A stretch of DNA of 64,000 bases. Origin: a virus. Shown piece after piece: positions 14,993 through 38,081 of the stretch. The stretch is from IMG/VR virus record IMGVR_UViG_3300045110_000158, positions 1 through 64,000 of that record; one strand, written 5' to 3'. The number at the start of each line of letters is the position of its first letter. Positions within the stretch are counted from its first letter, which is position 1. Made by a program: the position numbers and the translations under genes. The notes beneath the pieces were generated by a model. The model was not told the origin of the DNA. It worked only from the letters and a program-made list of their open reading frames with translations, and did not search any database.

Positions 14993-15013
14993 GGTGTAAC
15001 ATCGTGTAACACC
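14993..15013. promoter_or_regulatory. Dispersed 21-bp dyad, copy 1 (one-base variant)
   Basis: GGTGTAACA-TCG-TGTAACACC. It differs from the consensus half-site GGTGTTACA at one base. It ends 5 bases before the -35 box of the promoter at 15019, a position suited to an activator or to a repressor that blocks the -35. Confidence 0.7.
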
Positions 15014-15018
15014 TCGAT

Positions 15019-15047
15019 TTGACACAAGCTATGCACCATGCTATTGT
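15019..15047 (+). promoter_or_regulatory. Sigma70-like promoter for the first plus-strand gene
   Basis: TTGACA, 17-base spacer, TATTGT. The predicted start is about 50 bases before ATG 15105. The 21-bp dyad lies directly upstream. This is probably an early promoter used by host RNA polymerase. Confidence 0.7.
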
Positions 15048-15104
15048 TTGATTGCTGGCACGGAATGCCAGTGCAACAGCCCTGTAGGGCAGAAAGAGTG
15101 ACTT

Positions 15105-15764
15105 ATGACAAACGTTCAATCGATCGTGACTCCCGCGACCAATGGCGCAATCCATGCCAAGACCAATGGCAAGGCTAAGGCCAAGGCCAACGGCTCGACA
15201 TCGCTAACGCCAGCCCAAGCTATCGACATTGCCTTTGAGTATGGGCAGACCATGGCAGGGCAGGACGGCGCCTTGACTAGTGCCTTCGCCACGTTCAAGG
15301 CGAACGATAAGGTAATCGCTGATATGGTCCAAGCTTTGACGGAAGGTTACTTTGTCCGGAAGCTTAGCTATGACCGGGATGAGGCAAAGCGGGTTATTGG
15401 CTTGAAAAAGTACAATCAACTCAACCCTGCTAAGAATACCGATGACAACCGGACGGCGGAGCAAGAACGGGTTATGACGGCCGTTCGCGTCCTAGTCTCC
15501 CGTGCCAAGCGCATGGCAGGGATCACGGAAGCCAAGGCGGACACGGCCGTCAAGGCGGAGCAAGTCAAGGCGGAGAAAGAGGCGCACGAACAGCGCTTGA
15601 TCAAGGCCGATGAGATCATCAATCCTCCGGACGACGTCGACGCTTTCGACGCTCTCAACCGGATGGTGCTTTCGATGAAAGCAATCCAGAAAAAGTATGC
15701 CGCAAAGCTTGTCGGGGATCGCGGCTCGGAATGGCGCGATTGGCTCGCCAACGCTCCGCGCTAA
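15105..15764 (+). CDS. Unknown early protein, 219 aa
   Basis: First gene of the plus-strand arm, with its own promoter and a strong terminator right after it, so it forms a single-gene unit. The first 35 residues are Ala/Lys/Asn-rich (KTNGKAKAKANGS); the rest is helical and charged, with LTPAQAIDIAFEYGQTM and a Lys/Glu-rich middle (AKADTAVKAEQVKAEKEAHE). No known domain is recognised. High lysine content, a single-gene unit and the first position are typical of immediate-early host-takeover or DNA-binding proteins; this is inference. It lies next to the proposed origin. Confidence 0.75.
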   Translation: MTNVQSIVTPATNGAIHAKTNGKAKAKANGSTSLTPAQAIDIAFEYGQTMAGQDGALTSAFATFKANDKVIADMVQALTEGYFVRKLSYDRDEAKRVIGLKKYNQLNPAKNTDDNRTAEQERVMTAVRVLVSRAKRMAGITEAKADTAVKAEQVKAEKEAHEQRLIKADEIINPPDDVDAFDALNRMVLSMKAIQKKYAAKLVGDRGSEWRDWLANAPR

Positions 15765-15782
15765 GCCTAGCCTAGCCTACTG

Positions 15783-15810
15783 CCCCGCGGCGAAAGCCGC
15801 GGGGTTTTTT
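15783..15810 (+). terminator. Rho-independent terminator
   Basis: Perfect 9-bp GC stem CCCCGCGGC / GCCGCGGGG closed by a GAAA tetraloop and followed by six T. It lies 19 bases after the stop of the 219-residue gene. It isolates that gene from the gene-free region downstream. Confidence 0.95.
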
Positions 15811-16358
15811 GCGTTTCGGCGCCATCACCTAATCCAATGCGCTAACACGTGACGCAAAACGACGGTATCTAAATACAAGGAAGTTTACAGTGCACTATAC
15901 TAATAGGTGTTACATGATGTAACACCTGTTTCGTATTAGCATATGCGAACAGATGGTTGATTTTAGCGTTAACGCTTACAACGCGCTACCATATGCGCTC
16001 TTTTTGTGCCGTTGAAAGGCGCAATGTGCCGCACTTTGTGAATCCTTGTGCCGTGAAAAGTTTAATGATTTCAATACCATGTGCCTTTGTGCTGTTTGTG
16101 CCGTTCCAAAACAGGCCCCCCCCCTTTTTTGAGTATCCAAACGGGTTGAGCCGTGAGCCCTGCCAAGTACTATATTTAACTACGTGTAAATAAAATATAA
16201 TATAAGATATAGGATGTAGAGTGATTGTGGCGAAATAAAGATATGGGGGGGGGCTTGTTTTGCACGGCACAGCGGCACAATCGCTCAAACCTAATGATAT
16301 CAATAACTTACGTGGCACAGACTTTTCAATCAACGGAACAATACGCTCAATCAATGAC
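15811..16358. other. Gene-free segment: candidate replication origin with iteron-like repeats
   Basis: About 550 bases with no convincing gene. On the left are forward copies of TGTGCCG(T/C): TTGTGCCGTTGAAA at 16004, TGTGCCGC at 16025, TTGTGCCGTGAAAAG at 16046 and TTGTGCCGTTCCAAAA at 16096. On the right are inverted copies at 16261-16271 and 16272-16280, plus TGGCACAG at 16313. Between them are a C9T6 tract (16116-16130), a very AT-rich stretch (about 16166-16222) and a G9 tract (16245-16253). TAATGAT(T/A)TCAATA occurs at 16063 and 16292. A perfect 12-bp palindrome AGCGTTAACGCT lies at 15965-15976. Copies of the 21-bp dyad stand at both ends. Iterons around an AT-rich core suggest an origin. 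Confidence 0.55.
15906..15926. promoter_or_regulatory. Dispersed 21-bp dyad, copy 2 (perfect)
   Basis: GGTGTTACA-TGA-TGTAACACC with perfect 9-base arms, extended by A and T outside. It lies at the left edge of the proposed origin, 96 bases after the terminator, with no gene start nearby. That argues against a purely ribosome-related role for this copy. Confidence 0.85.
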
Positions 16359-16574
16359 TTAGCGTGTATCACAATCTGGAGGTGTTACATGATGTAACAC
16401 CTTCTGCAGGTAGAGCCGTGCACTGCGCGCCTTGTATCTGTCGTTGCTGTTGAGGATCGCGCGCACCGTACACAGCGCAGCGAGTAGACTATCGATCTCG
16501 CCTTGCCTCGATTGCTGGCCATTGGCGAACGCCGCACGCTCCGCCGCGTTGGTCGCGGCGTAATCCTGATCCAT
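16359..16574 (-). CDS. Hypothetical protein, 71 aa, antisense to the plus-strand arm
   Basis: MDQDYAATNAAERAAFANGQ then a helical EIDSLLAALCTVRAILNSND segment. The frame begins 3 bases after the stop of the upstream membrane peptide, so the two form a small minus-strand pair. Its C-terminal VLHHVTPP comes from reading through the 21-bp dyad. It is probably helical; the family is unknown. It may be real because of the coupled arrangement and a plausible composition, but its 3' end invades the origin-like region. Confidence 0.5.
   Translation of the reverse strand: MDQDYAATNAAERAAFANGQQSRQGEIDSLLAALCTVRAILNSNDRYKARSARLYLQKVLHHVTPPDCDTR
16381..16401. promoter_or_regulatory. Dispersed 21-bp dyad, copy 3 (perfect)
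   Basis: Same as copy 2, including the TGA centre and the flanking A/T. It marks the right edge of the proposed origin and lies inside the 3' end of the small minus-strand gene. Confidence 0.85.
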
Positions 16575-16577
16575 GTA

Positions 16578-16715
16578 CTAGCTCCAATGCCAGAAGCGGC
16601 AGAATGCAAATACGATCAGGCACCACATTGGGATCGCCATCAGGCACCCGTTGCGCAAGCCTACGAAAAATCTCAGCGGATCATCGTCATCCCAGTCTTC
16701 CCAGTTTTTAGGCAT
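16578..16715 (-). CDS. Small membrane peptide with acidic N-terminus, 45 aa
   Basis: Minus strand from ATG 16715: MPKNWEDWDDDDPLRFFVGL, then a hydrophobic helix (LMAIPMWCLIVFAFCRF). A GGGGAG site lies about 9 bases upstream. Phages often carry short DDPLRFF-type membrane peptides, but their function is not known; superinfection exclusion or lysis control are possibilities. It is transcribed against its neighbours and precedes the 71-residue gene. Confidence 0.55.
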   Translation of the reverse strand: MPKNWEDWDDDDPLRFFVGLRNGCLMAIPMWCLIVFAFCRFWHWS

Positions 16716-16764
16716 GGTGAGGTCTCCCCACCTAAGTGAGCCCAGCCCTCGCCCTCAATCTGGT

Positions 16765-16792
16765 TTGACCGTACACCTATCCCCATGATAAT
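16765..16792 (+). promoter_or_regulatory. Sigma70-like promoter for the 16.9-18.1 kb operon
   Basis: TTGACC, 16-base spacer, GATAAT. The expected start falls at about 16799-16800, just at the first base of the strong stem-loop at 16801. It would drive the run of small overlapping genes from 16875. Confidence 0.55.
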
Positions 16793-16800
16793 AAAAATGC

Positions 16801-16834
16801 GGCAAGCCACGAGAGCGTCATCTCGTGGCTTGCC
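16801..16834. other. Perfect 14-bp stem-loop at the predicted transcript 5' end
   Basis: GGCAAGCCACGAGA, six-base loop GCGTCA, TCTCGTGGCTTGCC. On the plus strand it would form the very 5' end of the mRNA and could protect it or be an RNase III site. On the minus strand it is followed by GCATTTTTATT and would work as a terminator for leftward transcription. Either reading, or both, is possible. Confidence 0.7.
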
Positions 16835-16874
16835 TGACCACAATCCGTGCTCCGTATAGGGACAGGCACAGACC

Positions 16875-17258
16875 ATGGCTGAGATTCCCCTAGACCATTT
16901 TTTCAATGTTGTCTGCCGCGAGATCGCTGATGAGCACGATCTCCTCCGCAACGCAATCATCCACTACGTGACAGCCAGCTCCCAGCTTCCACGGCTGCGC
17001 CGGGCAGCACAGGCATGGCAGCCTCGCACACCTATTCACCACAAATATAAGCGCCTGATGCTTGCGAAGGATTTACAGCCTCTCACGCGAGACCAACTCA
17101 CCCCAGAAGTGGTAGCGCTGATGCGAACACTTCAGGACTGGCTGCGCACCAATTGGTATCAGAAGGGTGAGATTATGTTTAACAAACAATTGGCAGCAAG
17201 AGACCCAACACACGCGACATGGGGCAACGCAGCAACAAAGGAGCCGACACATGGCTGA
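16875..17258 (+). CDS. Hypothetical early protein, 127 aa
   Basis: MAEIPLDHFFNVVCREIADE, helical N-terminal half, then a His/Arg-rich middle (WQPRTPIHHKYKRLMLAKDL) and a Trp-containing helix. No domain is recognised. It is the first gene behind the promoter and stem-loop at 16.8 kb and overlaps the next gene by 8 bases. The ribosome binding site is weak. The role is unknown. Confidence 0.65.
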   Translation: MAEIPLDHFFNVVCREIADEHDLLRNAIIHYVTASSQLPRLRRAAQAWQPRTPIHHKYKRLMLAKDLQPLTRDQLTPEVVALMRTLQDWLRTNWYQKGEIMFNKQLAARDPTHATWGNAATKEPTHG

Positions 17259-17490
17259 CCGCGACACACCAATGAGCAAAGTCCTGAGCAACGTCGAGCA
17301 GGAATTACAAAACTTGCCCGCACCTCCGACACGAACACCAAGCCAGAACGTTGAAGCCTTCGCTCCACAGAAGTACCGCGAACGCAGCGACACTATGGAA
17401 CAAATCCAGCAGGACTTCCGCAAGGCAGTCGCTGAGATGGAGCAACGCTTCAAGGCGCTCGCTGACGAACTCAAGCGCATCACGGGTTGA
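17251..17490 (+). CDS. Hypothetical coiled-coil protein, 79 aa
   Basis: Start placed at ATG 17251 (MADRDTPMSKVLSNVEQELQ), overlapping the end of the previous gene; a longer frame would lie inside it. The C-terminal 40 residues (ERSDTMEQIQQDFRKAVAEM, then FKALADELKRITG) form a continuous amphipathic helix. It may oligomerise. No known family. Confidence 0.6.
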   Translation: MADRDTPMSKVLSNVEQELQNLPAPPTRTPSQNVEAFAPQKYRERSDTMEQIQQDFRKAVAEMEQRFKALADELKRITG

Positions 17491-17494
17491 ACCC

Positions 17495-17707
17495 ATGCTC
17501 TGGCCCTTTGGACGAAACAACGTTCGCAAAGCGATCCAGACCACCAAGCTCGCAGCTATCCTAAACCAGCTGCCGGCCGAAACCTGGGTTACCACCAATC
17601 AGGTGGAGAACCTCGTCGTCACCGACAAGGCAGGCGAGGAGCTGGGTTACATCGACTTGGCGGAGGACGTCTACGAGCTGTTCGACAAGAACAAACAAAT
17701 CCAATGA
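17495..17707 (+). CDS. Hypothetical protein, 70 aa
   Basis: Begins MLWPFGRNNVRKAIQTTKLA at 17495; the rest is TWVTTNQVENLVVTDKAGEEL and an acidic C-terminus (DLAEDVYELFDKNKQ). It lies 4 bases after the previous stop and overlaps the next gene by 4 bases (ATGA). It looks like a small soluble alpha/beta protein. Not recognised. Confidence 0.6.
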   Translation: MLWPFGRNNVRKAIQTTKLAAILNQLPAETWVTTNQVENLVVTDKAGEELGYIDLAEDVYELFDKNKQIQ

Positions 17708-17811
17708 CGATCATGTGGTGGATTGGCTTGATCGCAAGCGTCATCGTCGTAGCCACGCTTGGCCTGACCGTCTGGCACCTGTTGTCTGAGCAAGAGTGGG
17801 ATGAGCGATGA
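17704..17811 (+). CDS. Small membrane peptide, 35 aa
   Basis: MTIMWWIGLIASVIVVATLG followed by LTVWHLLSEQEWDER. One hydrophobic helix with an acidic C-terminus. Both ends overlap neighbours by 4 bases (ATGA), which is strong support for translation although the frame is short. Possible holin-like or host-membrane peptide; unproven. Confidence 0.6.
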   Translation: MTIMWWIGLIASVIVVATLGLTVWHLLSEQEWDER

Positions 17812-18011
17812 GCGAACGTGGACACTTCCGAGTGCCGCGGCCCGAGCAGTGGGCTAAGCTGCCACTCAAGCTCAGGCAACGCTGGTGGCGTGAAACCGAC
17901 TACGGCAGCAAAGCACCGAACGATGCGCTAATCAAAGCAATACGAGAAGCAGCAGAAGCACACGATGCACCACGTAACCCCGCCGACCGAACAACAGCAA
18001 CAAAGGATTGA
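17808..18011 (+). CDS. Hypothetical basic protein, 67 aa
   Basis: MSERGHFRVPRPEQWAKLPL with Arg/Trp-rich KLRQRWWRETDYG and a helical Ala-rich C-terminus. Translationally coupled to the membrane peptide upstream. It overlaps the next candidate gene by 47 bases in another frame. No known domain. Confidence 0.6.
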   Translation: MSERGHFRVPRPEQWAKLPLKLRQRWWRETDYGSKAPNDALIKAIREAAEAHDAPRNPADRTTATKD

Positions 18012-18147
18012 TGCCGCTAAAGCGGCAGCAGACATCTATGCTCAAACCATCGACGCATTGATTCCTGATGGACCTCACAAGCGTACAGTCATGCTCAAGC
18101 TGCGAACAGTGGCGTTGGTAATCAACGAAGTAATCACGCATACTTAA
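17965..18147 (+). CDS. Small helical protein, possibly a diverged Acb2/Tad1-type hairpin
   Basis: 60 residues from ATG 17965. After MHHVTPPTEQQQQ comes a helix (RIDAAKAAADIYAQTIDALI), a turn PDGPHKR, and a second helix (TVMLKLRTVALVINEVI). Helix, short Pro-containing loop with charged residues, then helix with a hydrophobic register is the layout of the Acb2/Tad1 hairpin family; compare the clearer member at 20785. The match is weak and the 47-base overlap with the previous gene is unusual. Confidence 0.5.
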   Translation: MHHVTPPTEQQQQRIDAAKAAADIYAQTIDALIPDGPHKRTVMLKLRTVALVINEVITHT

Positions 18148-18158
18148 CAACCTAAAGA

Positions 18159-18179
18159 GGTGTTACACGATGTAACACC
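18159..18179. promoter_or_regulatory. Dispersed 21-bp dyad, copy 4
   Basis: GGTGTTACA-CGA-TGTAACACC. It lies 11 bases after a stop codon and 18 bases before the next ATG (18198), so it sits in the leader of that gene. Perfect arms; the centre differs from copies 2 and 3. Confidence 0.85.
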
Positions 18180-18197
18180 TTGGAGATGGCAGCGACC

Positions 18198-18437
18198 ATG
18201 ACCGCATCAGCCTTCGACCCGGTAAGGGCAGCCAAGGAAGAGCTTGTCGGCTTGAACGAAATGCAGCGTGTGCTCAAGGCTCGCGAGCGCGAATGCGAAG
18301 AAGCAATGAGCAAAGCAGAGCAAGAGCTAAACGCTATACGCAAGATCACCGGCTATGTTAAAGTATCTATGCAGACGATCGCACTGCGCATCGCGGAGCT
18401 GGAAAAACGTGCGAGAGAAACAGGCCAGACGCCTTAG
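18198..18437 (+). CDS. Hypothetical coiled-coil protein, 79 aa
   Basis: Start uncertain: ATG 18198 (MTASAFDPVRAAKEELVGLN) has GGAG 12 bases upstream, while ATG 18186 is in the same frame but abuts that GGAG. The whole protein is a charged helix (RVLKARERECEEAMSKAEQE, RIAELEKRARETGQTP) and should form a coiled coil. It directly follows a copy of the dyad. Unknown function. Confidence 0.65.
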   Translation: MTASAFDPVRAAKEELVGLNEMQRVLKARERECEEAMSKAEQELNAIRKITGYVKVSMQTIALRIAELEKRARETGQTP

Positions 18438-18483
18438 CAAGGCGCGACAGCAACGCGACTATGAACGTGCCAAGGAACGCAAT

Positions 18484-18894
18484 ATGCCCACAGCCAGCAA
18501 ACCGCTTGTCCCGCCCGGGCCACTGACGTTCGCGGAATTGCGGCTTGCCAACCTGACGCGCAAGACAGACCACGGCTTGCCACCGTGGGCGCAAGACATG
18601 GATTTGCTGTATGTGGCGATGATGCTTGCCGATCACACCATCCAGAACGACCGGATCGCCGCTGACGTCGGCATTGACCTCGAAGCCGCCATCCGACTAC
18701 GGTTCGACTATATGGCTGGACGTGTGCAAAGCTCGGAAGACTTGGCGCTGGTGCTGGCGGCAGGAGACACCATCGCTCCGGACAAAGCGCAGGAAGCGCG
18801 AGACATAGCGCCCCTGCTGGCAACAGAACTAGGTTTGGATGTCATCGAAGAAGCTCTAAAGAGGGCGTACCCACATGACCTGGAAAGGAAATGA
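18484..18894 (+). CDS. Hypothetical protein, 136 aa
   Basis: ATG 18484 is chosen because AAGGA lies 7 bases upstream; an in-frame continuation reaches back to 18355 inside the previous gene. The protein begins MPTASKPLVPPGPLTFAELR, has DMDLLYVAMMLADHTIQNDR and a segment GIDLEAAIRLRFDYMAG, then an acidic helical end. It is all-helical; the middle vaguely recalls MazG-type pyrophosphohydrolases but lacks their ExxE signature. It overlaps the endolysin gene by 20 bases. Confidence 0.6.
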   Translation: MPTASKPLVPPGPLTFAELRLANLTRKTDHGLPPWAQDMDLLYVAMMLADHTIQNDRIAADVGIDLEAAIRLRFDYMAGRVQSSEDLALVLAAGDTIAPDKAQEARDIAPLLATELGLDVIEEALKRAYPHDLERK

Positions 18895-19693
18895 TCCGGC
18901 GCTTGAGTTCAAGACCATCGAGGCCGTCGCGGCCTATATCCGCAGCTTGAGCTACAACTCGTGGCGCCCATCCAACTTCGTCGTCCACAACACCGCAAGC
19001 CCTACACTGAAACAATGGTGGGGCTCGACCCCGCCCGCGCAGCGCATGGTCAATCTGCAGAACTACTACGAGAACGACATGGGCTGGAGCGCGGGCCCGC
19101 ATTTTTTCATCGATGGGAAAAGCTGGTGGTGCATGACCCCGCCCAACGTCAAGGGCGTGCACTCCCCGAGCTGGAACGGCACCATGCTGGGATTTGAACA
19201 TGTAGGGGACTACGAGACTGAATCAGCCACGGAAGGCTTAGGCGCCGACGTCCAGCGCATGGGGCACCAACTCAGCGCAGAGTGTTGCGAGTTCTTTGGC
19301 TGGGACCCGTCCCGCCTCAAGTTCCACTACGAGGACCCCAACACCGACCATGCCTGCCCTGGCAGCAACATGAACAAGAACACGTACATAGACTGCGTGC
19401 AGCAAGTCATGGGTGACGGCGGCGACCACAACCCTAACCCGCCAACGCCAGCCGTGCCGCGTCTTGGCACCGTCCACGGCGTCGCCGCCAACGACAAGCT
19501 GAACATCCGTGCCTCCTCCTCATCCTCGTCGCCGATCATCGGCGCCGCCGAGAATGGCGACGTTTTGACGATAGTGGGCGAAGCCATGAACGGCTCGACC
19601 AAGTGGCTGCGCTTCCAGGTCGGCGACCCCGCGGGCGCAGACGTCGCACTGCTTGGCTGGTGCTCCGCCGCCTATGTTAAAATTGAAAGCTAG
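18875..19693 (+). CDS. Endolysin: N-acetylmuramoyl-L-alanine amidase (Amidase_2) with SH3-like domain
   Basis: 272 residues. The N-terminal catalytic domain has FVVHNTAS (His38), WSAGPHFFID and KFHYEDPNTDHACPG (His151 and Cys161); these are the zinc ligands expected for T7-lysozyme/PGRP-type amidases that cut the lactyl-peptide bond of peptidoglycan. After a Pro/Asn linker (about 188-198), residues 205-272 (AANDKLNIRAS, then WLRFQVGDPAGADVALLGWC) form a bacterial SH3-like wall-binding domain. No signal peptide, so release through a holin is expected. It is unusual in being placed in the early arm rather than with late genes. Confidence 0.9.
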   Translation: MTWKGNDPALEFKTIEAVAAYIRSLSYNSWRPSNFVVHNTASPTLKQWWGSTPPAQRMVNLQNYYENDMGWSAGPHFFIDGKSWWCMTPPNVKGVHSPSWNGTMLGFEHVGDYETESATEGLGADVQRMGHQLSAECCEFFGWDPSRLKFHYEDPNTDHACPGSNMNKNTYIDCVQQVMGDGGDHNPNPPTPAVPRLGTVHGVAANDKLNIRASSSSSSPIIGAAENGDVLTIVGEAMNGSTKWLRFQVGDPAGADVALLGWCSAAYVKIES

Positions 19694-19705
19694 GGGTAGA
19701 TAACC

Positions 19706-20176
19706 GTGACATTCGAAGTGCAGCAACAGAACAACAAGCCTATCCTTTGCGTCGACTGGGACGGCGTCGTGCACAGCTACACGTCGGGCTGGAAGGGCGC
19801 GTCCATCATTCCTGACCCGCCAGTGCCGGGTGCCTTGGAATGGCTACTGAGAGCCTCCAAGCTCTTCACCCTCGTGGTCTACTCGTCGCGCTCCAAGGAC
19901 CCCGAAGCGCTCACTGCCATGCGGATGTGGCTGGGTTACCACGCCCATGCCACCCTCCCCGATCTGAAAGCGTCCGAGCTGCTCCAAGTCGTTACTTTCG
20001 CTCATGAGAAGCCCGCGGCCTTCCTGACCATCGACGACCGTGCTATCTGCTTCGACGGCGACTGGTCGAAGCTCGACCCCGAGACCCTGCTCAAGTTCAA
20101 ACCATGGAACCAGCGAGGACGGGTCATCAAGGAAACGATCTCGGACCAAGTAGGTACTCAAGCAAGTGTTACATAA
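19706..20176 (+). CDS. HAD-superfamily phosphatase-like protein
   Basis: 156 residues from GTG 19706 (AGGGG 9 bases upstream). HAD motif I is ILCVDWDGVVHSY (Asp17, Asp19), motif II is LVVYSSRSKD, and a later TIDDRAICFDGDW supplies the motif IV Asp pair. Phages commonly encode such DxDGVxHSY proteins; they are thought to act on nucleotides or polynucleotide 3'-phosphates, but the substrate is not known here. The stop codon lies inside a copy of the 21-bp dyad. It sits between the endolysin and the Acb2-like gene. Confidence 0.8.
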   Translation: MTFEVQQQNNKPILCVDWDGVVHSYTSGWKGASIIPDPPVPGALEWLLRASKLFTLVVYSSRSKDPEALTAMRMWLGYHAHATLPDLKASELLQVVTFAHEKPAAFLTIDDRAICFDGDWSKLDPETLLKFKPWNQRGRVIKETISDQVGTQASVT

Positions 20177-20185
20177 TGCAACACC
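20165..20185. promoter_or_regulatory. Dispersed 21-bp dyad, copy 5 (imperfect)
   Basis: AGTGTTACA-TAA-TGCAACACC; both arms carry one change from consensus. It contains the stop codon of the HAD gene and ends 47 bases before ATG 20233. Confidence 0.7.
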
Positions 20186-20232
20186 TCGTGAACTAACCCC
20201 CTCATCCCACTAACAAATAAAGGAGACTGAGC

Positions 20233-20544
20233 ATGGCCGCAGTACCCGTCGTCATCAACGGCGTCATGATGCCCAAAGGAAAATCCGCCACCGACAAGCC
20301 GGTGCCGGCCGTCTTCATCGGCTATGCCACCATCCCTGGGCTGTCGGTCGGTGGCGGTCCGGTGATCCCGGACACCCCGCCAGATATCCCGGTCGACCCG
20401 CCGACCGAGCAGCCGCCGCCCAGCCTTGCCGTGGTCATCAAGCCCGCCCCGGTGACCGGTGGCTGGGGTCTCGCGACGCAAGGTGACCAGCTGCAATGGT
20501 TCTTCGTTCCCGCCGCTGGCGGCCCGCAGCCCAAGCGACCCTAA
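20233..20544 (+). CDS. Proline-rich hypothetical protein, 103 aa
   Basis: MAAVPVVINGVMMPKGKSAT, then a Pro-rich middle (IPDTPPDIPVDPPTEQPPPS) and a C-terminal WGLATQGDQLQWFFVPAAG. Strong AAGGAG upstream of ATG 20233. The Gly/Pro linker flanked by two short beta segments suggests a surface or periplasmic protein, but no signal peptide is evident. Not recognised. Confidence 0.65.
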   Translation: MAAVPVVINGVMMPKGKSATDKPVPAVFIGYATIPGLSVGGGPVIPDTPPDIPVDPPTEQPPPSLAVVIKPAPVTGGWGLATQGDQLQWFFVPAAGGPQPKRP

Positions 20545-20549
20545 GCGGT

Positions 20550-22653: not shown

Positions 22654-22887
22654 CTATCTCCTTCTGGATTTGGCCTCCCTTGCATAGAGGTCTGGACGAA
22701 GCTCTTCACGGGGGATGCCGGTGGCGCGCTCGACGTCGAGCACTCGTTCTGCCGGGATTCGTTTTCTCCAGAACTGGATGGCTTGGAAAGAGATGCCTAT
22801 GGCGCGCGCCAGCGGACGCATCCCGCCGGCCTTGTCGATTGCCGCGTCAATCGGACGGGCCCGTTTGAATTTCGGATTCTTGTTCAT
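22654..22887 (-). CDS. Cro/YdaS-like HTH repressor, 77 aa
   Basis: Start taken at ATG 22887 because MNKNPKFKRARPIDAAIDKA begins the recognisable part; the open frame extends upstream without signals. IDAAIDKAGGMRPLARAIGI, then SFQAIQFWRKRIPAERVLDV and EELRPDLY is the layout of YdaS/Cro-type helix-turn-helix proteins. It is transcribed away from the plus-strand gene at 22993, with three TTGTC/GACAA half-sites between them, so it probably represses one or both promoters. A repressor without a visible integrase may point to defective or plasmid-like lysogeny, or only to early-gene control. Confidence 0.75.
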   Translation of the reverse strand: MNKNPKFKRARPIDAAIDKAGGMRPLARAIGISFQAIQFWRKRIPAERVLDVERATGIPREELRPDLYAREAKSRRR

Positions 22888-24537: not shown

Positions 24538-24566
24538 TTGACAAACAACGAGTTTTATGGTACAAT
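24538..24566 (+). promoter_or_regulatory. Strong sigma70-like promoter
   Basis: TTGACA, 17-base spacer, TACAAT. The predicted start, about 24573, lies some 33 bases before the dyad at 24606 and about 80 before ATG 24652. It drives the 24.65-28 kb operon including the MoxR/VWA genes. Confidence 0.85.
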
Positions 24567-24605
24567 GCTTGTTACGGTGGGATCAGATTATCCACCAACG
24601 AAAAA

Positions 24606-24626
24606 GGTGTTACACGATGTAACACC
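24606..24626. promoter_or_regulatory. Dispersed 21-bp dyad, copy 6
   Basis: GGTGTTACA-CGA-TGTAACACC. It lies downstream of the strong promoter's start point and 25 bases before ATG 24652, so it is inside the mRNA leader. A bound protein would act as a roadblock; as RNA it is a 9-bp hairpin near the ribosome binding site. Confidence 0.85.
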
Positions 24627-25557: not shown

Positions 25558-25578
25558 GGTGTTACATGATGTAACACC
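25558..25578. promoter_or_regulatory. Dispersed 21-bp dyad, copy 7 (perfect)
   Basis: GGTGTTACA-TGA-TGTAACACC. It lies 11 bases after a stop and 24 bases before the ATG of the MoxR-like ATPase gene. No promoter is evident next to it. Confidence 0.85.
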
Positions 25579-25602: not shown

Positions 25603-26685
25603 ATGAAGAAGCTCTCTATTTCCCAAATCAAGACTGCCGTCAAAGAGATCGTGGTTCGGCTCGACAAGCCGATTATCATCAAGGGCGGCTTCGGCATCGG
25701 CAAGTCTCAGGGCGTCGAGCAGGCTGTCGACGAGCTTGATAATCCGAAGGCGCTGAAGGAATTGCTGGGCAAAGACTGCCCGTACACCGGCACGCTCTTG
25801 GTGGATATCCGCTTGTCCCAGTACGACTCCGTTGATCTCCGCGGCTTCCCGCAGGCCGACAAGAAAACCGGTAGTGCGATCTGGTATCCACCGTCGACGT
25901 TTCCGTTCATCGGCAACGATGCATTCCCGGACGACAAGTTGATCGTTGTATTCTTTGACGAGGGCCCGGACGCCAAGAACGATGTGTTCGCAGTCATGCA
26001 GCAAATCCTGCTCAACAGGTGCTGCGGCGAGCACGTGCTCAAGCCGAACGTGCGCATGCTGTTGGCGGGTAACCGCGACGGCGATCAGGCTCTTGCCAAG
26101 AAATTCCCTATGCCATTGAACAACCGCCTCATCCACTTCGAGGCGATCAATCCATTGGAGGACTTCTGCATCTATGCGCAGAGCCAAGGCGTGCCATCGG
26201 TGTTCATTGCGTTCTGGAATTTCTGCGCCGATCTCGTCAACACCTACGATCCCAAGAAGACCACACCCATCGTGGCGACGCCACGCACATGGTTCTCTGC
26301 GATCGAGCTGTGGCAGGACAAGCGGTTGGACCCGGTGATCAAGGAGGCCGCCATGATCGGCGCCATCGGCGAGGGTCCGGCGGTGCAGTTCCTGGCTTAC
26401 GTCGATGTCTGGCAGAGCCTGCCGAACATCGAGAAGATCAAGAAGGACCCGGACACTTATCCCGTGCCCGAAGAACTCTCGATCAAGTACGCAACGGCCA
26501 TGATGGTGTCCGAGAAGATGACGATGGGCAACGTGGATGCGCTTCATACCTACCTGAAGCGTTTCACTGCGGAGTTCGTCGTCATGGCGTGGCAGCTGGC
26601 GACGGCGCGCGATGCGACACTCTTTGATGCGGATGCGTACATGGATTATGTGAAGCGCTACCGCGAAGTCTATACGTCCAACTGA
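25603..26685 (+). CDS. MoxR-type AAA+ ATPase
   Basis: 360 residues. Walker A is GGFGIGKS (residues 28-35), Walker B LIVVFFDEGPDA (about 112-123), and a sensor-like MLLAGNRDGDQ follows. The C-terminal lid begins near IVATPRTWFSAIELW. MoxR ATPases act with VWA-domain partners as chaperone-like remodelling machines, and such a partner is encoded at 27201. N4-like phages carry a similar pair (gp24/gp25 region), where the role is also unclear. The dyad and a good ribosome binding site lie immediately upstream. Confidence 0.85.
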   Translation: MKKLSISQIKTAVKEIVVRLDKPIIIKGGFGIGKSQGVEQAVDELDNPKALKELLGKDCPYTGTLLVDIRLSQYDSVDLRGFPQADKKTGSAIWYPPSTFPFIGNDAFPDDKLIVVFFDEGPDAKNDVFAVMQQILLNRCCGEHVLKPNVRMLLAGNRDGDQALAKKFPMPLNNRLIHFEAINPLEDFCIYAQSQGVPSVFIAFWNFCADLVNTYDPKKTTPIVATPRTWFSAIELWQDKRLDPVIKEAAMIGAIGEGPAVQFLAYVDVWQSLPNIEKIKKDPDTYPVPEELSIKYATAMMVSEKMTMGNVDALHTYLKRFTAEFVVMAWQLATARDATLFDADAYMDYVKRYREVYTSN

Positions 26686-26884: not shown

Positions 26885-27154
26885 ATGGTCAAGACAACTC
26901 GTAAACAACGTGAAGCTTTGTTCCGTATCTTCCAGCGGGATTTCCCTGGCTGGATCACGGTCACCACGCGCCACGATGGCGTACGCTGTCCGCATTGCGG
27001 CGAGTGGAGCACGCTAGAGACCGTCAAGGTATCGTCACTGCAGTGGCGCCGCTTTCGCAAGACGGTGCAGCCGTTCTTCGGCGATGACTGCGTCATGGTG
27101 CCGTGGGCCGGTATGTGGCTGGGCATCGAGACGGACGGATACACTCACTCATAG
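26885..27154 (+). CDS. Hypothetical zinc-finger-like protein, 89 aa
   Basis: MVKTTRKQREALFRIFQRDF is a basic helix; VRCPHCGEW (Cys35, Cys38) and a later DDC may bind zinc, and the C-terminus is hydrophobic (MVPWAGMWLGIETDG). Phages often encode such RxxLFxIF...CPxC proteins; function unknown. Its stop codon abuts copy 8 of the dyad. Confidence 0.65.
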   Translation: MVKTTRKQREALFRIFQRDFPGWITVTTRHDGVRCPHCGEWSTLETVKVSSLQWRRFRKTVQPFFGDDCVMVPWAGMWLGIETDGYTHS

Positions 27155-27175
27155 GGTGTTACATTATGTAACACC
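27155..27175. promoter_or_regulatory. Dispersed 21-bp dyad, copy 8
   Basis: GGTGTTACA-TTA-TGTAACACC. Its first base follows the last base of a stop codon and it ends 25 bases before ATG 27201 of the VWA gene. Confidence 0.85.
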
Positions 27176-27200: not shown

Positions 27201-28400
27201 ATGGCACGACATCAAAAGCAACTCACAGTTTTCGAGACGGCGCGCGCCGGTCTCGTCAAGGTCAAGGCGCTGATGTTCTTTGCGTCAGCGTTGCTGCAAA
27301 CCAAGTTCATCGAAGACCCGACGTGTGACACCGCTTGGACCGACATGGTCGTGATCGGGTACAACCCGGAGTTCATCGAAGGACTGGATATCCCGACTGC
27401 CAAGTTCGTAATCATCCACGAGCTGATGCACATCCTGCTCAAGCACGGGCTGCGGCGTGGCTCCCGTGATCCCAAGCGCTGGAACCATGCGTGCGATTAC
27501 GCCATCAACATCATGCTCAAGAAGCTGGGCTTCAGCATTTGGAAATACGCACTGATCGAGCCCACGTATGACGGCATGACCGCGGAGCAAATCTATGCGC
27601 TGCGAGAGAAGGAGCAACAGGGAGGCAAAGGCAAAGGCAAGGGCCCTCCGGGCCAGGGCCAAGGTCAGGGACAGGGACAACCTCAGCCCCGGCCAGGGAC
27701 AAAGCCTGAGCCTGAGCAAGGCGGGCTGGGCGGCGATCTGCGTCCGGTGCCTGTGGCAACGCAGGAGCAAGCTGCGGCGATCGACCACGCGATCAGCAAG
27801 GTGATCGCGCGGGCAACCGCCATTGCCAAGCAGCATGGCGTCATGCCCGGCGAACTCGAAGCGATCGTTGCCGGGACCTACGAGGACCCAGTGCCATGGG
27901 AGCAGGTACTGATAGACTACATGACAGCTTGTGTGGCGCAGGACGAGAACTGGTCCAAGCGCAACAGGCGGTACCACGACGCCATCCTGCCCTCGCATAA
28001 AAGCAACGGCATGGATGAGCTGACCATCGTCGCCGACTCGTCGGGTTCGATGTTCAGCAAGGCGATCTTTGAGCGCGTCGCTGTGGCTGTGAACCACATT
28101 ACGACAGTAATCAAGCCGATGACTGTGCGCGTGGTGTGGGCCGACGACAAGGACTGCCAGAACATCGACGTGTTCGAGGACGGCGCCGAGGTGGTGCTTC
28201 ACCCTAAAGGTGGAGGTGGCACCGACATGCGCAAGCCATTGGTGTTCGCTGAGCAGTACTCGCCGGAGGTGGTTCTCTTGCTGACGGATGGGTACACGCC
28301 GTGGCCCGAGATCGAGACGCCGTTTCCGTTGATCATCGGGTGTACGACTGATGCGCCTTGTCCTGATTGGGCGGGCACAGTGAGGATAGAGGTGCAGTGA
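27201..28400 (+). CDS. VWA-like metallopeptidase-domain protein (DUF2201 type), MoxR partner
   Basis: 399 residues from ATG 27201. The N-terminal half has a zincin helix FVIIHELMHILLKHGLRR (HELMH at 73-77) and CDYAINIMLKKLG. A Gly/Pro/Gln-rich linker follows at about residues 140-185. The C-terminal half is VWA-like: ELTIVADSSGSMFSKAIF is a MIDAS-type DxSGS, then GGGGTDMRKPLVFAEQ and VVLLLTDGYTPW. This fusion of predicted metallopeptidase and VWA-like domains is DUF2201, usually encoded beside a MoxR ATPase as here. Activity in phage growth is not known. Confidence 0.85.
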   Translation: MARHQKQLTVFETARAGLVKVKALMFFASALLQTKFIEDPTCDTAWTDMVVIGYNPEFIEGLDIPTAKFVIIHELMHILLKHGLRRGSRDPKRWNHACDYAINIMLKKLGFSIWKYALIEPTYDGMTAEQIYALREKEQQGGKGKGKGPPGQGQGQGQGQPQPRPGTKPEPEQGGLGGDLRPVPVATQEQAAAIDHAISKVIARATAIAKQHGVMPGELEAIVAGTYEDPVPWEQVLIDYMTACVAQDENWSKRNRRYHDAILPSHKSNGMDELTIVADSSGSMFSKAIFERVAVAVNHITTVIKPMTVRVVWADDKDCQNIDVFEDGAEVVLHPKGGGGTDMRKPLVFAEQYSPEVVLLLTDGYTPWPEIETPFPLIIGCTTDAPCPDWAGTVRIEVQ

Positions 28401-32951: not shown

Positions 32952-32975
32952 CTAACAAACAGGAGACAAACAATC

Positions 32976-33515
32976 ATGAGTAAAGACGATGGAGAACGAG
33001 GCAAACGTACAGGTATGGACCAGGCGGAGGAAGCGGCTAATGCTCATTGGTGGCGATGCATGCTGGAGTGCGGCAAGATTATAGCTAAGCGTAAACCTCA
33101 TTTTATAACCGATGACATAGTCCTCCTATGTCGATCACGACATCCCAATGCTCGCACTCATGAGAAGCGCGCTATTGGTCCGTTAATGCGGGAGCTTTGC
33201 AACCTTGGTTTTTGTGTAACCACAAACAGCTGGATAAAAAGCACACAAGCACAATGCCATCGACGGCCGATGATGCTCTGGCAAAGCTTAATATCCAATG
33301 CGACATACCGAAAAAATGGGGTGACCACCATGACTGGCTACTTAGTTAACACACGAACAAAAAGAAAGTTCGAGATCATCAAGATCGATCGCGACAAGAA
33401 TTTGTTAACCCTTAAGGGTGAGACTGGCGGAGTGTTCGACGAACCATACGACAAACCCAGGCTCAAGGAGCTTGGCTATCAGTACGTACAAAACAGCGAG
33501 CAACAAGATGCCTGA
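32976..33515 (+). CDS. Two-part replication-module protein, 179 aa
   Basis: Residues 1-110 (AHWWRCMLECGKIIAKRKPH, then CRSRHPNARTHEKRAIGPLM and HRRPMMLWQSLIS) resemble a small phage domain seen in replication modules with THExRAxGPxM and CHxRPxxxWxS. Residues 118-179 (MTGYLVNTRTKRKFEIIKID) look like a separate small beta protein that could start at an internal ATG near 33330. It may be a natural fusion or two genes joined. It overlaps the next gene by 8 bases. Confidence 0.65.
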   Translation: MSKDDGERGKRTGMDQAEEAANAHWWRCMLECGKIIAKRKPHFITDDIVLLCRSRHPNARTHEKRAIGPLMRELCNLGFCVTTNSWIKSTQAQCHRRPMMLWQSLISNATYRKNGVTTMTGYLVNTRTKRKFEIIKIDRDKNLLTLKGETGGVFDEPYDKPRLKELGYQYVQNSEQQDA

Positions 33516-33780
33516 CGGAAAAGAGTTACAAAATGTAACACCATCGCAGCCCGGGTCCAACGGACAGGACCATGGGATCGATCCGAAGATCGTCAAGATG
33601 GTTGACTTTCTCGAACGGGCCGTAAGAACGCAGAACCCAACCGTTGGCACATTCATTGCCGCGGTCGGCCTCATGCTGGGGAAGAGAGGCTTGGACCCTC
33701 AGAACCTCGAACGTGTGATCTTCGACGTGAACTCCGCCATCCGTGTTGGTTTCTATCTCCACTACATCAAAGGAAAATAA
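33508..33780 (+). CDS. Hypothetical protein, 90 aa
   Basis: Start at ATG 33508, overlapping the previous stop; the longer frame is inside the upstream gene. MPDGKELQNVTPSQPGSNGQ includes residues read from a degenerate dyad; then VKMVDFLERAVRTQNPTVGT and a helical end with YLHYIKGK. Not recognised. Confidence 0.65.
   Translation: MPDGKELQNVTPSQPGSNGQDHGIDPKIVKMVDFLERAVRTQNPTVGTFIAAVGLMLGKRGLDPQNLERVIFDVNSAIRVGFYLHYIKGK
33522..33542. promoter_or_regulatory. Dispersed 21-bp dyad, copy 9 (degenerate, inside a coding region)
   Basis: AGAGTTACA-AAA-TGTAACACC. The right half is perfect and the left keeps GTTACA. It starts 12 bases after ATG 33508, so it overlaps coding sequence, unlike most copies. 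It may be a weaker site. Confidence 0.5.
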
Positions 33781-33781
33781 A

Positions 33782-34342
33782 ATGTTGAACCATGTAATGC
33801 TTGATCTGGAGACCTGGGGAGTCTCTCCCTATTCCACCATCATCGCGATCGGGGCTTGCGCGTTCGATCCTTACACCGACCAGCAAGATAAGATCATCAC
33901 GGACCGTTTCGAGGTCGCGATCGCTCCGGTCAATGCCGGGCTGCGTGTTGATGCCGATACCCTGATGTGGTGGATGAACGCCGAGCGTGACGCTGCGCGC
34001 AGCGTGTGGCTGAAGATGCCCAAGGTCTCGACACACGTGGCGCTGGACGGTTTCAGTAACTGGCTTCGTTCGTTGAACAGCGGCAGCGAGAGCAGGGACC
34101 TTCGCATTTGGGGCAACGGCGCCGGCTTCGACAACGTACTCTTGAGGCAGGCGTACGAGATGGCTTCTCGTGAGGTGCCATGGAGCTTCTGGCATGATCG
34201 CTGCTTCCGCACGTTGCGCGCCTTGCTGACTCTCGAAGAAGGTCAGTACCTGGGCACGCAGCATACCGCGCTCGCTGACGCCGAGAACCAGGCGATCCGC
34301 GCTAATCAAATCGTTCGCCGACTTGGGATCAAGCTCACATGA
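33782..34342 (+). CDS. 3'-5' exonuclease (DnaQ-like, Rv2179c-type)
   Basis: 186 residues from ATG 33782. Motif I is MLDLETWG (Asp8, Glu10), motif II LRIWGNGAGFDNVLLRQAYE, and motif III GTQHTALADAENQAIRA gives the His-x4-Asp. This is the DEDDh exonuclease pattern; many phages carry it beside repair genes. Probable substrate is single-stranded DNA or RNA. It heads the coupled repair operon (33782-36037). Confidence 0.85.
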   Translation: MLNHVMLDLETWGVSPYSTIIAIGACAFDPYTDQQDKIITDRFEVAIAPVNAGLRVDADTLMWWMNAERDAARSVWLKMPKVSTHVALDGFSNWLRSLNSGSESRDLRIWGNGAGFDNVLLRQAYEMASREVPWSFWHDRCFRTLRALLTLEEGQYLGTQHTALADAENQAIRANQIVRRLGIKLT

Positions 34343-35001
34343 AATCGTCCATCCATACGACGTGGCTTGGCGACTATGGTGTGAACTCGTACGTGCCTAA
34401 TGCGTGGATCAACCAGGGCTTCAGCGTCATCTACGCAGACCCACCGTGGTCGTTTAAGACGTTCTCGGCCAAGGGTACCGGCCGCAGTGCGATCTCGCAT
34501 TTCGACACGATGAGTCTTGAACAGCTGCGATCGTTGCCAGTCGGTGCTTTCGCCGCAAGGGATTGTGCACTGTTGTTGTGGGTTGTTCGATGGCTGCCGT
34601 CGCGCGCCATCGCCGATCTGTTGGACAGCTGGGACTTTGTCGAGAAGGGTAACGCTTTCACCTATGTCAAGACCACCAAGGACGGTAAGCGTTTCCCGAT
34701 CGGTTGCGGTTACTCCACTCGCGCCAACCCGGAGCGCTGCATCCTGGCGACGCGCGGCAAACCGAAAGTGCTAGACCATGGTGTTCCGGAGTTGATCATT
34801 GCGCCGCGCCGCGAACATTCGCGTAAGCCGGAGATTGCCTACGAGTATATCGAACGACTCTATGCTGGGCCTTATCTCGAATTGTTCAGCCGCAACACTC
34901 GCAAAGGCTGGGCTAGCTGGGGCAACGAGACCGACTTGTTCGACAACGGCCCGGTCAAGACCAGACGTCAACCATCCGACTTAACAGGACTACGTACATG
35001 A
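34339..35001 (+). CDS. MT-A70-type DNA N6-adenine methyltransferase
   Basis: 220 residues. FSVIYADPPWSFKTFSAKGT has the catalytic DPPW at about 34-37. HFDTMSLEQLRSLPV, ALLLWVVRWLPSRAI and a C-terminal YLELFSRNTRKGWASWGNE complete the MT-A70 pattern. It transfers methyl from S-adenosylmethionine to adenine N6, often to shield phage DNA from restriction. It overlaps both neighbours by 4 bases (ATGA). Confidence 0.9.
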   Translation: MKSSIHTTWLGDYGVNSYVPNAWINQGFSVIYADPPWSFKTFSAKGTGRSAISHFDTMSLEQLRSLPVGAFAARDCALLLWVVRWLPSRAIADLLDSWDFVEKGNAFTYVKTTKDGKRFPIGCGYSTRANPERCILATRGKPKVLDHGVPELIIAPRREHSRKPEIAYEYIERLYAGPYLELFSRNTRKGWASWGNETDLFDNGPVKTRRQPSDLTGLRT

Positions 35002-35672
35002 AGCCTCTTCCTTGGAGCCCGAGCGCGCTGGATACTTTCAAGAACTGCCCGGAGCAGTACCACCATCGCTATGTGCTCAAGGACCTGCCGCCCGAAGAGC
35101 GGAGCGCGGAGCAAGTCTACGGCGAGCGTGTGCACGAGGCGTTCGCCGATAGGCAGAGACCGAAGCGTGCAAAGCTGCCGTCCGATCTCGCAGCACACGA
35201 ACCGTTCATGCAGGTCCTGGCTGCGCAAGCCGGCAATGCGTACATCGAACACAAGGCGGCGCTGGCGAAGAACCTGGAGACTTGCGAATGGGGCGACAAG
35301 AACGTGTGGTGTCGGATGATCATCGACTACCTGAAGATCGATGCACGCGAACGCCACGGGTGGATCGTGGACTACAAGACTGGCAAGCCGCACACGAAGT
35401 TCAACCAGCTGGTCATTTATGCACTATGGGCGTTCCAGGAGTTTGGCTACTTCGACACGATCGACGTGATGTTTTACTGGACCAAGGATCGCACCACATC
35501 CGTCAGAAGATGGCACCGCGATCAGGTGCCCGAGCTATGGGGCGAACTCACTGGCGATCTGCGTCAGTACAAAGAAGCGTTCAGGACTGACACGTGGCAG
35601 CTGCGCCAATCCGGACTCTGCAACGGTTGGTGCCCTGTGATCCGCTGTAAGTACTGGAGACCGAAGCGATGA
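34998..35672 (+). CDS. Cas4/RecB-like PD-(D/E)XK nuclease with likely Fe-S cluster
   Basis: 224 residues. Begins LPWSPSALDTFKNCPEQYHH (Cys17), has YGERVHEAFADR (His motif), RMIIDYLKI and GWIVDYKTGK (the Asp...(D/E)xK pair near 110 and 124-126), then QLVIYALWAFQEF. The end is CNGWCPVIRCKYW, with Cys208, Cys212 and Cys217. One N-terminal and three C-terminal Cys is the Cas4/AddB iron-sulphur arrangement. It probably acts in recombination or replication-end processing with the VRR-NUC protein encoded next. Confidence 0.85.
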   Translation: MKPLPWSPSALDTFKNCPEQYHHRYVLKDLPPEERSAEQVYGERVHEAFADRQRPKRAKLPSDLAAHEPFMQVLAAQAGNAYIEHKAALAKNLETCEWGDKNVWCRMIIDYLKIDARERHGWIVDYKTGKPHTKFNQLVIYALWAFQEFGYFDTIDVMFYWTKDRTTSVRRWHRDQVPELWGELTGDLRQYKEAFRTDTWQLRQSGLCNGWCPVIRCKYWRPKR

Positions 35673-36037
35673 GGAAACCTAAGGCCAGCGACCGGAGTGA
35701 GTGGTGGGTCAAGAAACAAGTTAAGCTAATTCTCAAAGACACCGGATGGGAATCCTGGATGCCAAACTCCGGTATGTTTGGTCGGGTCGGTGTGAGTGAC
35801 TTCCTTGCCGTGAAGAAGCCCGCGCTATTCATGGCAATCGAGACCAAGTACGACGACGTACCAACGCAGCTACAACTCGCGTTTCTTAAAATGATCCACG
35901 ACGCCGGGCACTATGCTTTCCTGGTGGACGAAACTAATGTCGACCAGTTACGTGCGCTACTTACAAACGATCATGATCTATCTAGTTACCCAGTTGGTAC
36001 TCTCAGAAAATGGCAAGAAAACTTGACAAACACCTAA
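35669..36037 (+). CDS. VRR-NUC domain nuclease
   Basis: 122 residues. EWWVKKQVKLILKDTGWESW, then GRVGVSDFLAV, FMAIETKYD and PTQLQLAFLKMIHDAGHYAF contain the Asp, Glu-x-Lys and Gln residues of VRR-NUC endonucleases, which are commonly found with SNF2 helicases in phages and are thought to cut branched or flap DNA. Usual length for a stand-alone VRR-NUC. The promoter for the helicase lies inside its 3' end. Confidence 0.9.
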   Translation: MRKPKASDRSEWWVKKQVKLILKDTGWESWMPNSGMFGRVGVSDFLAVKKPALFMAIETKYDDVPTQLQLAFLKMIHDAGHYAFLVDETNVDQLRALLTNDHDLSSYPVGTLRKWQENLTNT

Positions 36038-36051
36038 TAAGATGATACACT
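36023..36051 (+). promoter_or_regulatory. Sigma70-like promoter for the helicase operon
   Basis: TTGACA, 17-base spacer, TACACT. It begins inside the last codons of the VRR-NUC gene and would start transcription about 15 bases before ATG 36074. Confidence 0.75.
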
Positions 36052-36073
36052 TATAAGTAGAAAGTGACTGAAC

Positions 36074-37627
36074 ATGTTGATACACAAACCAACCAAGAGC
36101 GTCGTGCTCAAGCTACGCGATCCGTCGCGTGTGCTTACATTTTTTCCCAGACAGAGTCGCTTGATCACTGCTGCCGAAGGCAACGTCCAGATCAAGCACA
36201 CGCTGGAGACCACGCTCAGACTCAATGAGCTTGGGATCAACGTGCCGTCTCCTGTTGACTACCAGTATGATTGGCCGGGTAAGTACACGCCGTTCGCACA
36301 TCAGCGACCGATGGCGGACTTCCACGTTCGCAATCTCAAGTGTCTCAATCTTTCGGAGATGGGAGTTGGTAAGAGCTTCTCGGCGCTGTGGGCTGCGGAC
36401 TATCTCATGTCAGTCGGCGAGGTGAGGAAGGCGCTTATTCTTTCGCCGCTGTCCATTCTGGAAACTGTCTGGCAGCAAGACATCTTTGATGTGTTGATGC
36501 ATCGGTCGAGCGTGGTCACTCATGGTGATCGCGAGTACCGGCTCAACGCTTTCGGCATGGACGTGGATTTCTATATTGCCAACCATGACATGATTAGAGA
36601 TCAGGAGATCGCCAAGCTGGTGCGCAAGCGAAAAGACATCGACCTCATCATCCTCGACGAGGCGAGCTTCTTTCGCAACAGCCGCAACATCTCGTACAAG
36701 TATTTTGCGTGGGCTACTGAGAACAAGAAGCGAGTGTGGCTGCTGACTGGCACACCATGTCCCAATGCGCCGACCGATGCCTGGGCGCTGGCACGGCTCG
36801 TCTGTCCGGCGCGGGTGCCCAAGTTCTTCGGCACGTTCCAGCGCATGACCATGCGGCAAGTGGGTCAGTACAAGTGGCGCCCGGTGAACGGCCACGAACA
36901 GATTGTATTCGATGCGCTGCAGCCAGCATGGCGCATCAAGAAGAAGGACTGCATAAGCCTGCCACCGCTGACTGTTGCCAACCGGCGCACGAAGCTCACG
37001 GCGGAACAGGAGAAAGCATACAAGCTCATGCGGGATTACATGATCCTGCAAGCCAAGACCACGAGGATCACCGCAGTCAACGCCGCGGATGCGCTCATCA
37101 AGCTCCGGCAAATCTGCTGCGGGGCAGTAAAGAATGGAGAGGATGTTTACGAGACTATTGACCATTCGGCCCGGCTCAACGAATTGATCGATACAATCAA
37201 TGAGGCTTCGGCCAAGGTGATCGTGATCGTTCCGTTCAAGGGAATCATTCGTGCACTGGAGACTGAACTCGCGAAGCATTTTAGCCTTGCGGTGATGAAC
37301 GGCGATGTTAGCATCGGCGCACGGAATCGGATTATTCGCGCTTTCAAATCCGGACCCGATCCGCGGATACTACTGTGCCACCCCAAGGTGATGGCTCATG
37401 GACTCAATCTGACAGAAGCCGACACGACCATCTTCTATGCGCCGATCTATTCGCACGACGAGTACGCGCAAGTAATCGAACGATTTAATCGCACGGGGCA
37501 GACCCGTAAGATGACTGTCGTTCGTATCACCGCCTGTTCATTCGAGCAAGACATCTACAGCTTGCTCGATGGCCGGGCACTGAATCAGGACAGCATCCTG
37601 AAATTGTACGAGAGGGTTATCCAATGA
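36074..37627 (+). CDS. SNF2/DEAD-type DNA helicase
   Basis: 517 residues. Motif I is LSEMGVGKSFSALW (about 93-106), motif II LIILDEASFF (about 191-200), motif III VWLLTGTPCPN. The second RecA-like domain has IVIVPFKGIIRAL and VIERFNRTGQTRKMTVVRI (motif VI). This is the superfamily 2 SNF2-type layout found in many phages next to VRR-NUC. It probably remodels recombination intermediates. It ends by overlapping the next frame's possible ATG 37624. Confidence 0.9.
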   Translation: MLIHKPTKSVVLKLRDPSRVLTFFPRQSRLITAAEGNVQIKHTLETTLRLNELGINVPSPVDYQYDWPGKYTPFAHQRPMADFHVRNLKCLNLSEMGVGKSFSALWAADYLMSVGEVRKALILSPLSILETVWQQDIFDVLMHRSSVVTHGDREYRLNAFGMDVDFYIANHDMIRDQEIAKLVRKRKDIDLIILDEASFFRNSRNISYKYFAWATENKKRVWLLTGTPCPNAPTDAWALARLVCPARVPKFFGTFQRMTMRQVGQYKWRPVNGHEQIVFDALQPAWRIKKKDCISLPPLTVANRRTKLTAEQEKAYKLMRDYMILQAKTTRITAVNAADALIKLRQICCGAVKNGEDVYETIDHSARLNELIDTINEASAKVIVIVPFKGIIRALETELAKHFSLAVMNGDVSIGARNRIIRAFKSGPDPRILLCHPKVMAHGLNLTEADTTIFYAPIYSHDEYAQVIERFNRTGQTRKMTVVRITACSFEQDIYSLLDGRALNQDSILKLYERVIQ

Positions 37628-37662
37628 CTGACCAACTGAAAATCTTACTGAAAGGAAAGCCG

Positions 37663-38061
37663 ATGACTGAGCAAGAGGTGAAGCTCGACAAGGTCGCCGC
37701 GACCTATGTCAAGATCAGGGATAAGCGGTCCGAGCTGAAGAAAACGTGGGAGGTCGAAGACCTCAAGCTGAAGGACCAGCTCGATACCATCGAGAGCTTT
37801 TTCCTGGAGACACTGCAGGCGTTGGGTGTCGAGAACGCGCGCACAAAGCACGGAACGATATACCGTACTCTTGATGTCAAACCCAGTTGCGAGGACTGGA
37901 ATGCGTTCTATGCCTGGATCGCCGAGAATGAGGCGTTCGATGCACTCGAACGTCGCGTCAAGAAATCCTTCATCACGCAATTCATGGAGGATAACAAGGA
38001 CGAACTCCCGCCCGGGATCACCGTGGTGAAAGAGTACATCGCCAAGGTCCTCCGCAAATAA
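37663..38061 (+). CDS. Hypothetical phage protein, 132 aa (Gp157/Gam-like helix)
   Basis: Two starts are possible: ATG 37663 (GAAAGGAAAG upstream, preferred) or ATG 37624, overlapping the helicase stop, which would add 13 residues. A long helix (YVKIRDKRSELKKTWEVEDL) is followed by TKHGTIYRTLDVKPSCEDWN and ENKDELPPGITVVKEYIA. This LxxxGVENxRTKHGTxYRT pattern is common in phage recombination modules near SSB genes; function unknown. The stop codon overlaps a dyad. Confidence 0.75.
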   Translation: MTEQEVKLDKVAATYVKIRDKRSELKKTWEVEDLKLKDQLDTIESFFLETLQALGVENARTKHGTIYRTLDVKPSCEDWNAFYAWIAENEAFDALERRVKKSFITQFMEDNKDELPPGITVVKEYIAKVLRK

Positions 38062-38081
38062 GTGTTACATCATGTAACACC
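38061..38081. promoter_or_regulatory. Dispersed 21-bp dyad, copy 10
   Basis: AGTGTTACA-TCA-TGTAACACC. Its first base is the last base of a TAA stop. It is followed directly by a 9-bp hairpin and lies 65 bases before the SSB-like start. Confidence 0.8.

Follow-up and report, generated by a model that had tools for sequence, protein, structure and literature searches.

Dispersed palindromic dyads in the early arm of a phage genome and the first early protein as their candidate binder

The closest precedent for the element described here is a repeat of the Cluster O mycobacteriophage Corndog, which carries 34 copies of the 17-bp sequence TGTTCGG-N3-CCGAACA, with 7-bp arms and no known binder (PMC4351075). 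The element in question is a set of ten dyads in a 64,000-nt stretch (positions 1 to 64,000, hereafter the window) of the 64.6-kb viral record IMGVR_UViG_3300045110_000158. Both are dispersed palindromes with a 3-bp centre, occur in many copies in intergenic and genic positions, are denser in one arm, are absent from the hosts tested (Corndog) or at chance level in bacterial genomes in general (here), and are presumed to be bound by a dimer. The two sets, compared by description only, differ in their arms and in the centre, which is A/T-rich (TTT/AAA) in Corndog; binder and function are unknown there, whereas association and covariation point to a candidate binder here. The stoperators of Cluster A mycobacteriophages are asymmetric, oriented with transcription and cause silencing when bound by a phage protein (PMC4351075). 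They resemble the window dyads as dispersed sites in short gaps of transcribed arms, and silencing is also proposed here; the dyads are palindromic instead of asymmetric, their binder would belong to another family, and no tyrosine integrase was found in these phages. In phage L5 the stoperator-binding protein is gp71, and stoperator phages are temperate, with repressor-based immunity. The start-associated sequences of Cluster K are likewise short repeats, located near start codons (PMC4351075), to which the dyads are not tied. We lean towards reading the dyads as operators for the protein that the first early gene encodes, which would regulate its own synthesis and damp early transcription.

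The earlier note on this DNA had described about ten copies of the dyad, and a motif scan of the window recovered ten at exactly the positions it gave. The element, GGTGTTACA-N3-TGTAACACC, has 9-bp arms, which are exact in six copies, carry one mismatch in two and two mismatches in another two. By chance 0.02 dyads were expected, none of 100 shuffles gave ten, and a motif-free search for repeated dyads placed the same element at the top with 10 copies against a shuffled maximum of 2. Across the 76 sites compared, which were oriented along early transcripts, the conserved core was GTGTTACA-N3-TGTAACAC, while the outermost base pair was poorly kept (G-C in 44 sites). The centre does differ between sites, with fifteen variants overall, but is not free as had been supposed, since CGA, TGA, TCA and TCG account for 53 of the 76.

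All ten window copies lie within the early plus-strand arm. This confinement, as claimed before, is not strict in relatives, where the contigs G009 and G015 each hold one copy in a gap of the late block. Placement between genes applied to most copies only. Gene starts were taken from our own gene caller; the IMG/VR contigs come without annotation, and some are fragments. Dyads 1 (14993..15013, one arm mismatch), 2 (15906..15926) and 3 (16381..16401) are located in long non-coding stretches. Several sites precede a start codon by 18-25 nt: dyad 4 (18159..18179) lies 18 nt upstream of the open reading frame (ORF) 18198-18437, dyad 6 (24606..24626) 25 nt before ORF 24652, dyad 7 (25558..25578) 24 nt ahead of an ATPase gene (25603-26685), and dyad 8 (27155..27175), right after a stop at 27154, 25 nt ahead of a DUF2201/VWA gene (27201). 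Three copies depart from the intergenic pattern. Dyads 5 (20165..20185, two mismatches) and 10 (38061..38081) run across the stop codons of ORFs 19706-20176 and 37624-38061, respectively, and dyad 9 (33522..33542, two mismatches) probably covers codons 5-11 of ORF 33508-33780, near its N-terminus.

A scan of IMG/VR for exact matches yielded multi-copy contigs and many single-copy contigs. The latter were set aside, about 10 matches to a motif of 16 fixed bases being expected by chance in that collection according to our own estimate. Whole-record scans with three mismatches allowed revealed 12 copies each in G002 and G009, 10 in G007, 9 in G011, 8 in G010, 6 in G005 and 5 in G020; under looser criteria, degenerate copies raised the total in G005 to 14 sites with a GTTACA core. 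The sites of the relatives lie mostly in equivalent gaps next to orthologous early genes, and their polymerase, helicase and primase genes also contain copies, which either fall in variable linkers or form in-frame insertions. Bacterial genomes (257 Gb) contained five exact matches against about 4 expected by our own estimate. This is a chance number, and a host regulon was therefore rejected. The equivalent gaps of the relatives and the chance-level bacterial counts thus support the phage-specific regulon which the earlier note had considered. The GenBank phages searched included no close DNA relative, and the parts of Rollin, StenR_269 and Xp15 that were read held no dispersed set of dyads comparable to this one.

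The early protein at 15105 and two helix-turn-helix proteins at 22654 and 22993 had been named as possible binders. The gene 15105-15764 (plus strand), which encodes 219 aa and has dyads on either side, was present in every W-clade relative (five) whose contig covers that place. The two helix-turn-helix genes were absent from nearly all dyad-bearing relatives and were rejected, as they are not conserved together with the dyads. Because the 15105 gene is flanked by dyads and kept with them, unlike the helix-turn-helix genes, we consider its product the likely binder. Searches of Pfam, PHROGs and NCBIfam gave no significant match to this protein. The gene at 22654-22887 encodes a YdaS/Cro-like protein on the minus strand within the plus arm; apart from the window, just one contig, nearly identical to it, has this gene.

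Dyads also occur in a second group of phages. The contigs G013 and G016, whose proteins show no detectable resemblance to those of the window, carry 4-5 near-identical dyads, and their first early gene, with a product of 131-137 aa, has dyads on both flanks. Comparison of the proteins was prompted by a short motif, KETRVGAAATSWSR in G016 and KETRIDGAARTGWSR in G005. Searches with the small protein returned 25 loci of unrelated phages in which the first early protein measures 130-160 aa. At 23 of the 25 loci this gene encodes the helix motif TRxxAAxxSWxRN and is accompanied by 2-6 dyads of the form GTGxxACA-N2-4-TGTyyCAC, amounting to 105 sites compared to 1.3 in shuffled sequence. The dyads begin in or just past the regulator gene and recur each 0.3-1.5 kb over about 5 kb of the early operon; the remainder of these contigs, which measure 50-66 kb, has none. 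The loci L147-L158 share a conserved leader ahead of the small early gene, in which a TATAATA -10 box and then a hairpin, for example CGGTTAGGG-ATTGG-CCCTGACCG, precede the start codon.

In the small family the variable bases xx are TT, AG, CG or GG, with one type per locus apart from single exceptions. Full separation of the TT, AG and GG types is seen at alignment columns 39-45, 84, 85 and 88 and at one hypervariable N-terminal column. Columns 39-45 are tautological, as the internal dyad encodes them in the AG and GG types; this dyad stays at the same codons even though its arms switch with the type. Residues 84, 85 and 88 (numbering of L145) lie on one face of a predicted helix, 81-94, and read V/G/A with TT, H/(V,L,M)/Q with AG, H/Y/Q with CG and N or Q/(D,E)/(R,T) with GG. 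Helix 81-94 is probably the recognition helix, with the three residues meeting the two variable bases of each half-site. Neither Pfam, PHROGs nor NCBIfam gave a significant match to the small protein, and no homologue of it or of the G005 protein was detected in the GenBank phages searched; the family appears undescribed. Whether unrelated phages here share a new family of early proteins that bind DNA through a novel recognition fold, with a code linking residues 84/85/88 to the variable dinucleotide of GTGxxACA, is in our judgement evenly balanced; site and protein specificities would then have changed jointly several times, even with an operator inside the regulator gene.

The small family may extend to the window protein. 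The best outside match of its hidden Markov model (HMM) was the dyad-flanked early gene of G005, with an E-value of 0.028 in a set of about 700 proteins and of 0.19, ranking first, among 4,878 ORFs. The G005 early protein in turn matched the W-clade proteins with E-values of about 1e-5. The predicted order of elements also agrees, with three helices, a strand or loop stretch and a long helix. These matches are suggestive of homology between the window protein and the small family.

From the sites, their distribution, their association with the first early gene, the covariation of protein and dyad in the small family and the lack of RNA-type compensation, we infer a protein that binds as a dimer, acts negatively and early, and is related to the small family. 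It would be made first, from a sigma70-type promoter (15019..15047, plus strand, TTGACA-17-TATTGT, 10/12) which has dyad 1 on its upstream edge, 5 bp from the -35 box, and would bind two inverted half-sites GTGTTACA. While accumulating, it would occupy its own promoter region (or gene) as well as the scattered dyads that follow early promoters, separate early genes or border a putative origin on either side. The bound sites would damp or end early transcription as an operator plus roadblock, similar to a stoperator set. A roadblock is suggested because sites sit downstream of promoters, after stops and inside genes. Dyad 6, for instance, would span roughly +33 to +53 relative to the start predicted for a second sigma70-type promoter (24538..24566, plus strand, TTGACA-17-TACAAT, 11/12), which lies about 40 bp upstream of it, and the order of promoter and dyad at 24538-24626 is aligned in five phages. 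We consider this autoregulatory reading somewhat more probable than not.

Several observations weigh against it. The sign of regulation is not fixed by sequence. The HMM match and a direct profile comparison of the window protein (A1) with the small family (A2), which was not significant, do not establish homology between the two. AlphaFold2 models of the window protein and of a small-family protein were of moderate confidence, with a mean predicted local distance difference test score of 71 and 77, respectively, and neither had a fold match in the PDB according to Foldseek. The ORF that follows the equivalent dyad in G020 is not a detectable homologue, and the contig ends there. In the small family, L168 encodes the protein without recognisable dyads, L169 has a different dyad, TTGGGAC-N4-GTCCCAA, and the covariation of protein and dyad comprises few independent changes and is confounded with phylogeny. 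In some phages the half-sites are 2-4 bp apart, which is loose for a rigid dimer and is the main observation that a hairpin would account for more easily.

With the same binder and sites, the protein might instead activate or tune early and middle transcription, or antiterminate, which we regard as unlikely. Dyad 1 is located upstream of the -35 box, an activator-like position, and its equivalent precedes a TTGAC[AT] box in 7 of 8 aligned genomes, closely in six and further away in G005. The distance to this box, however, varies from about 2 to 12 bp outside G005 (the G010 alignment is poor here), so that helical phase is not kept. Most sites have no adjoining promoter, and many lie downstream of one or within genes.

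The dyads could also act as hairpins in early mRNAs, bound by a protein as translational operators or cleaved as the processing sites envisaged in the earlier note. The window sites shortly before start codons, the loops of 2-4 nt and the symmetric arm changes between phages, which also preserve pairing, are compatible with this. Most arm changes, however, lacked compensation: across the 76 sites, 21 were one-sided, disrupting an RNA pair in 16 cases and turning it into G-U in 5, compared to a single compensated change. Within one genome the arms hold their sequence rather than covary, and in G005 positions 2 and 3 of the half-site vary largely independently on the two sides. A conserved promoter lies downstream of dyad 1, other sites are found in origin-like non-coding DNA or deep within genes, and no Rfam match was obtained anywhere in the window. 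Hairpins in mRNA thus appear improbable. Because the arm changes are mostly uncompensated, dyad 1 precedes a promoter box and sites occur in non-coding DNA flanking the putative origin, we favour double-stranded DNA half-sites read by a protein, in line with the dimeric DNA-binding protein originally suggested.

A role in replication, partition or nucleoid organisation, either ParB/SopB-like or in origin handling, is comparably improbable. Dyads 2 and 3 flank on the left and right a candidate replication origin (15980..16345), a non-coding region that is conserved in relatives; it combines inverted TGTGCCG/CGGCACA iterons and C9/G9 runs with an AT-rich core that includes TATAGGATG. Most sites, in contrast, accompany early genes remote from the iteron region, and those of the small-protein phages are limited to the early operon. 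Neither ParB, ParA nor a tyrosine integrase was found in eight relatives, serine integrases not being searched for; partition, one of the functions proposed before, was rejected, and lysogeny was provisionally discarded. Hairpin promoters for a virion RNA polymerase of the N4 type were rejected as highly improbable: N4 early promoters are likewise early-region inverted repeats, hairpins with a 3-nt loop (PMC4496689), and the window encodes a late protein of 2180 aa while the large protein of a distant phage is annotated as virion RNA polymerase, but the loop, which in N4 is conserved and touched by the polymerase, is variable here, the 2180-aa protein matches no RNA polymerase family in Pfam or PHROGs, and two dyads adjoin ordinary sigma70-type promoters. 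The 2180-aa protein (57406-63948, minus strand) contains an HExxH-like stretch, SVHEMVHAVMH, has no family match and is probably an internal or ejected virion protein.

Two neighbours of the dyads deserve mention. The ATPase (phrog_1297, 25603-26685) and the DUF2201 metallopeptidase/VWA protein (27201-28400), each preceded by a dyad, occur as a pair in all relatives. Following dyad 10 and upstream of gene 38147-39289, positions 38083-38130 form a conserved candidate H-type RNA pseudoknot. As judged by eye, changes in relatives keep its stem GGTCCTGG/CCAGGACC paired, and the loop GTTCC pairs with an invariant GGAAC downstream. Because the protein encoded by 38147-39289 has an acidic C-terminal end, this may be an autoregulated leader of a single-stranded DNA-binding protein, as in T4 gene 32.

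Dispersed palindromes of the Corndog type have been on record since 2015 at the latest, with neither binder nor function assigned, and a binder is proposed here on the basis of sequence. If true, this proposal would provide a new family of phage early regulators together with a natural series of matched protein-operator pairs, whose specificity variants are directly testable in vitro.

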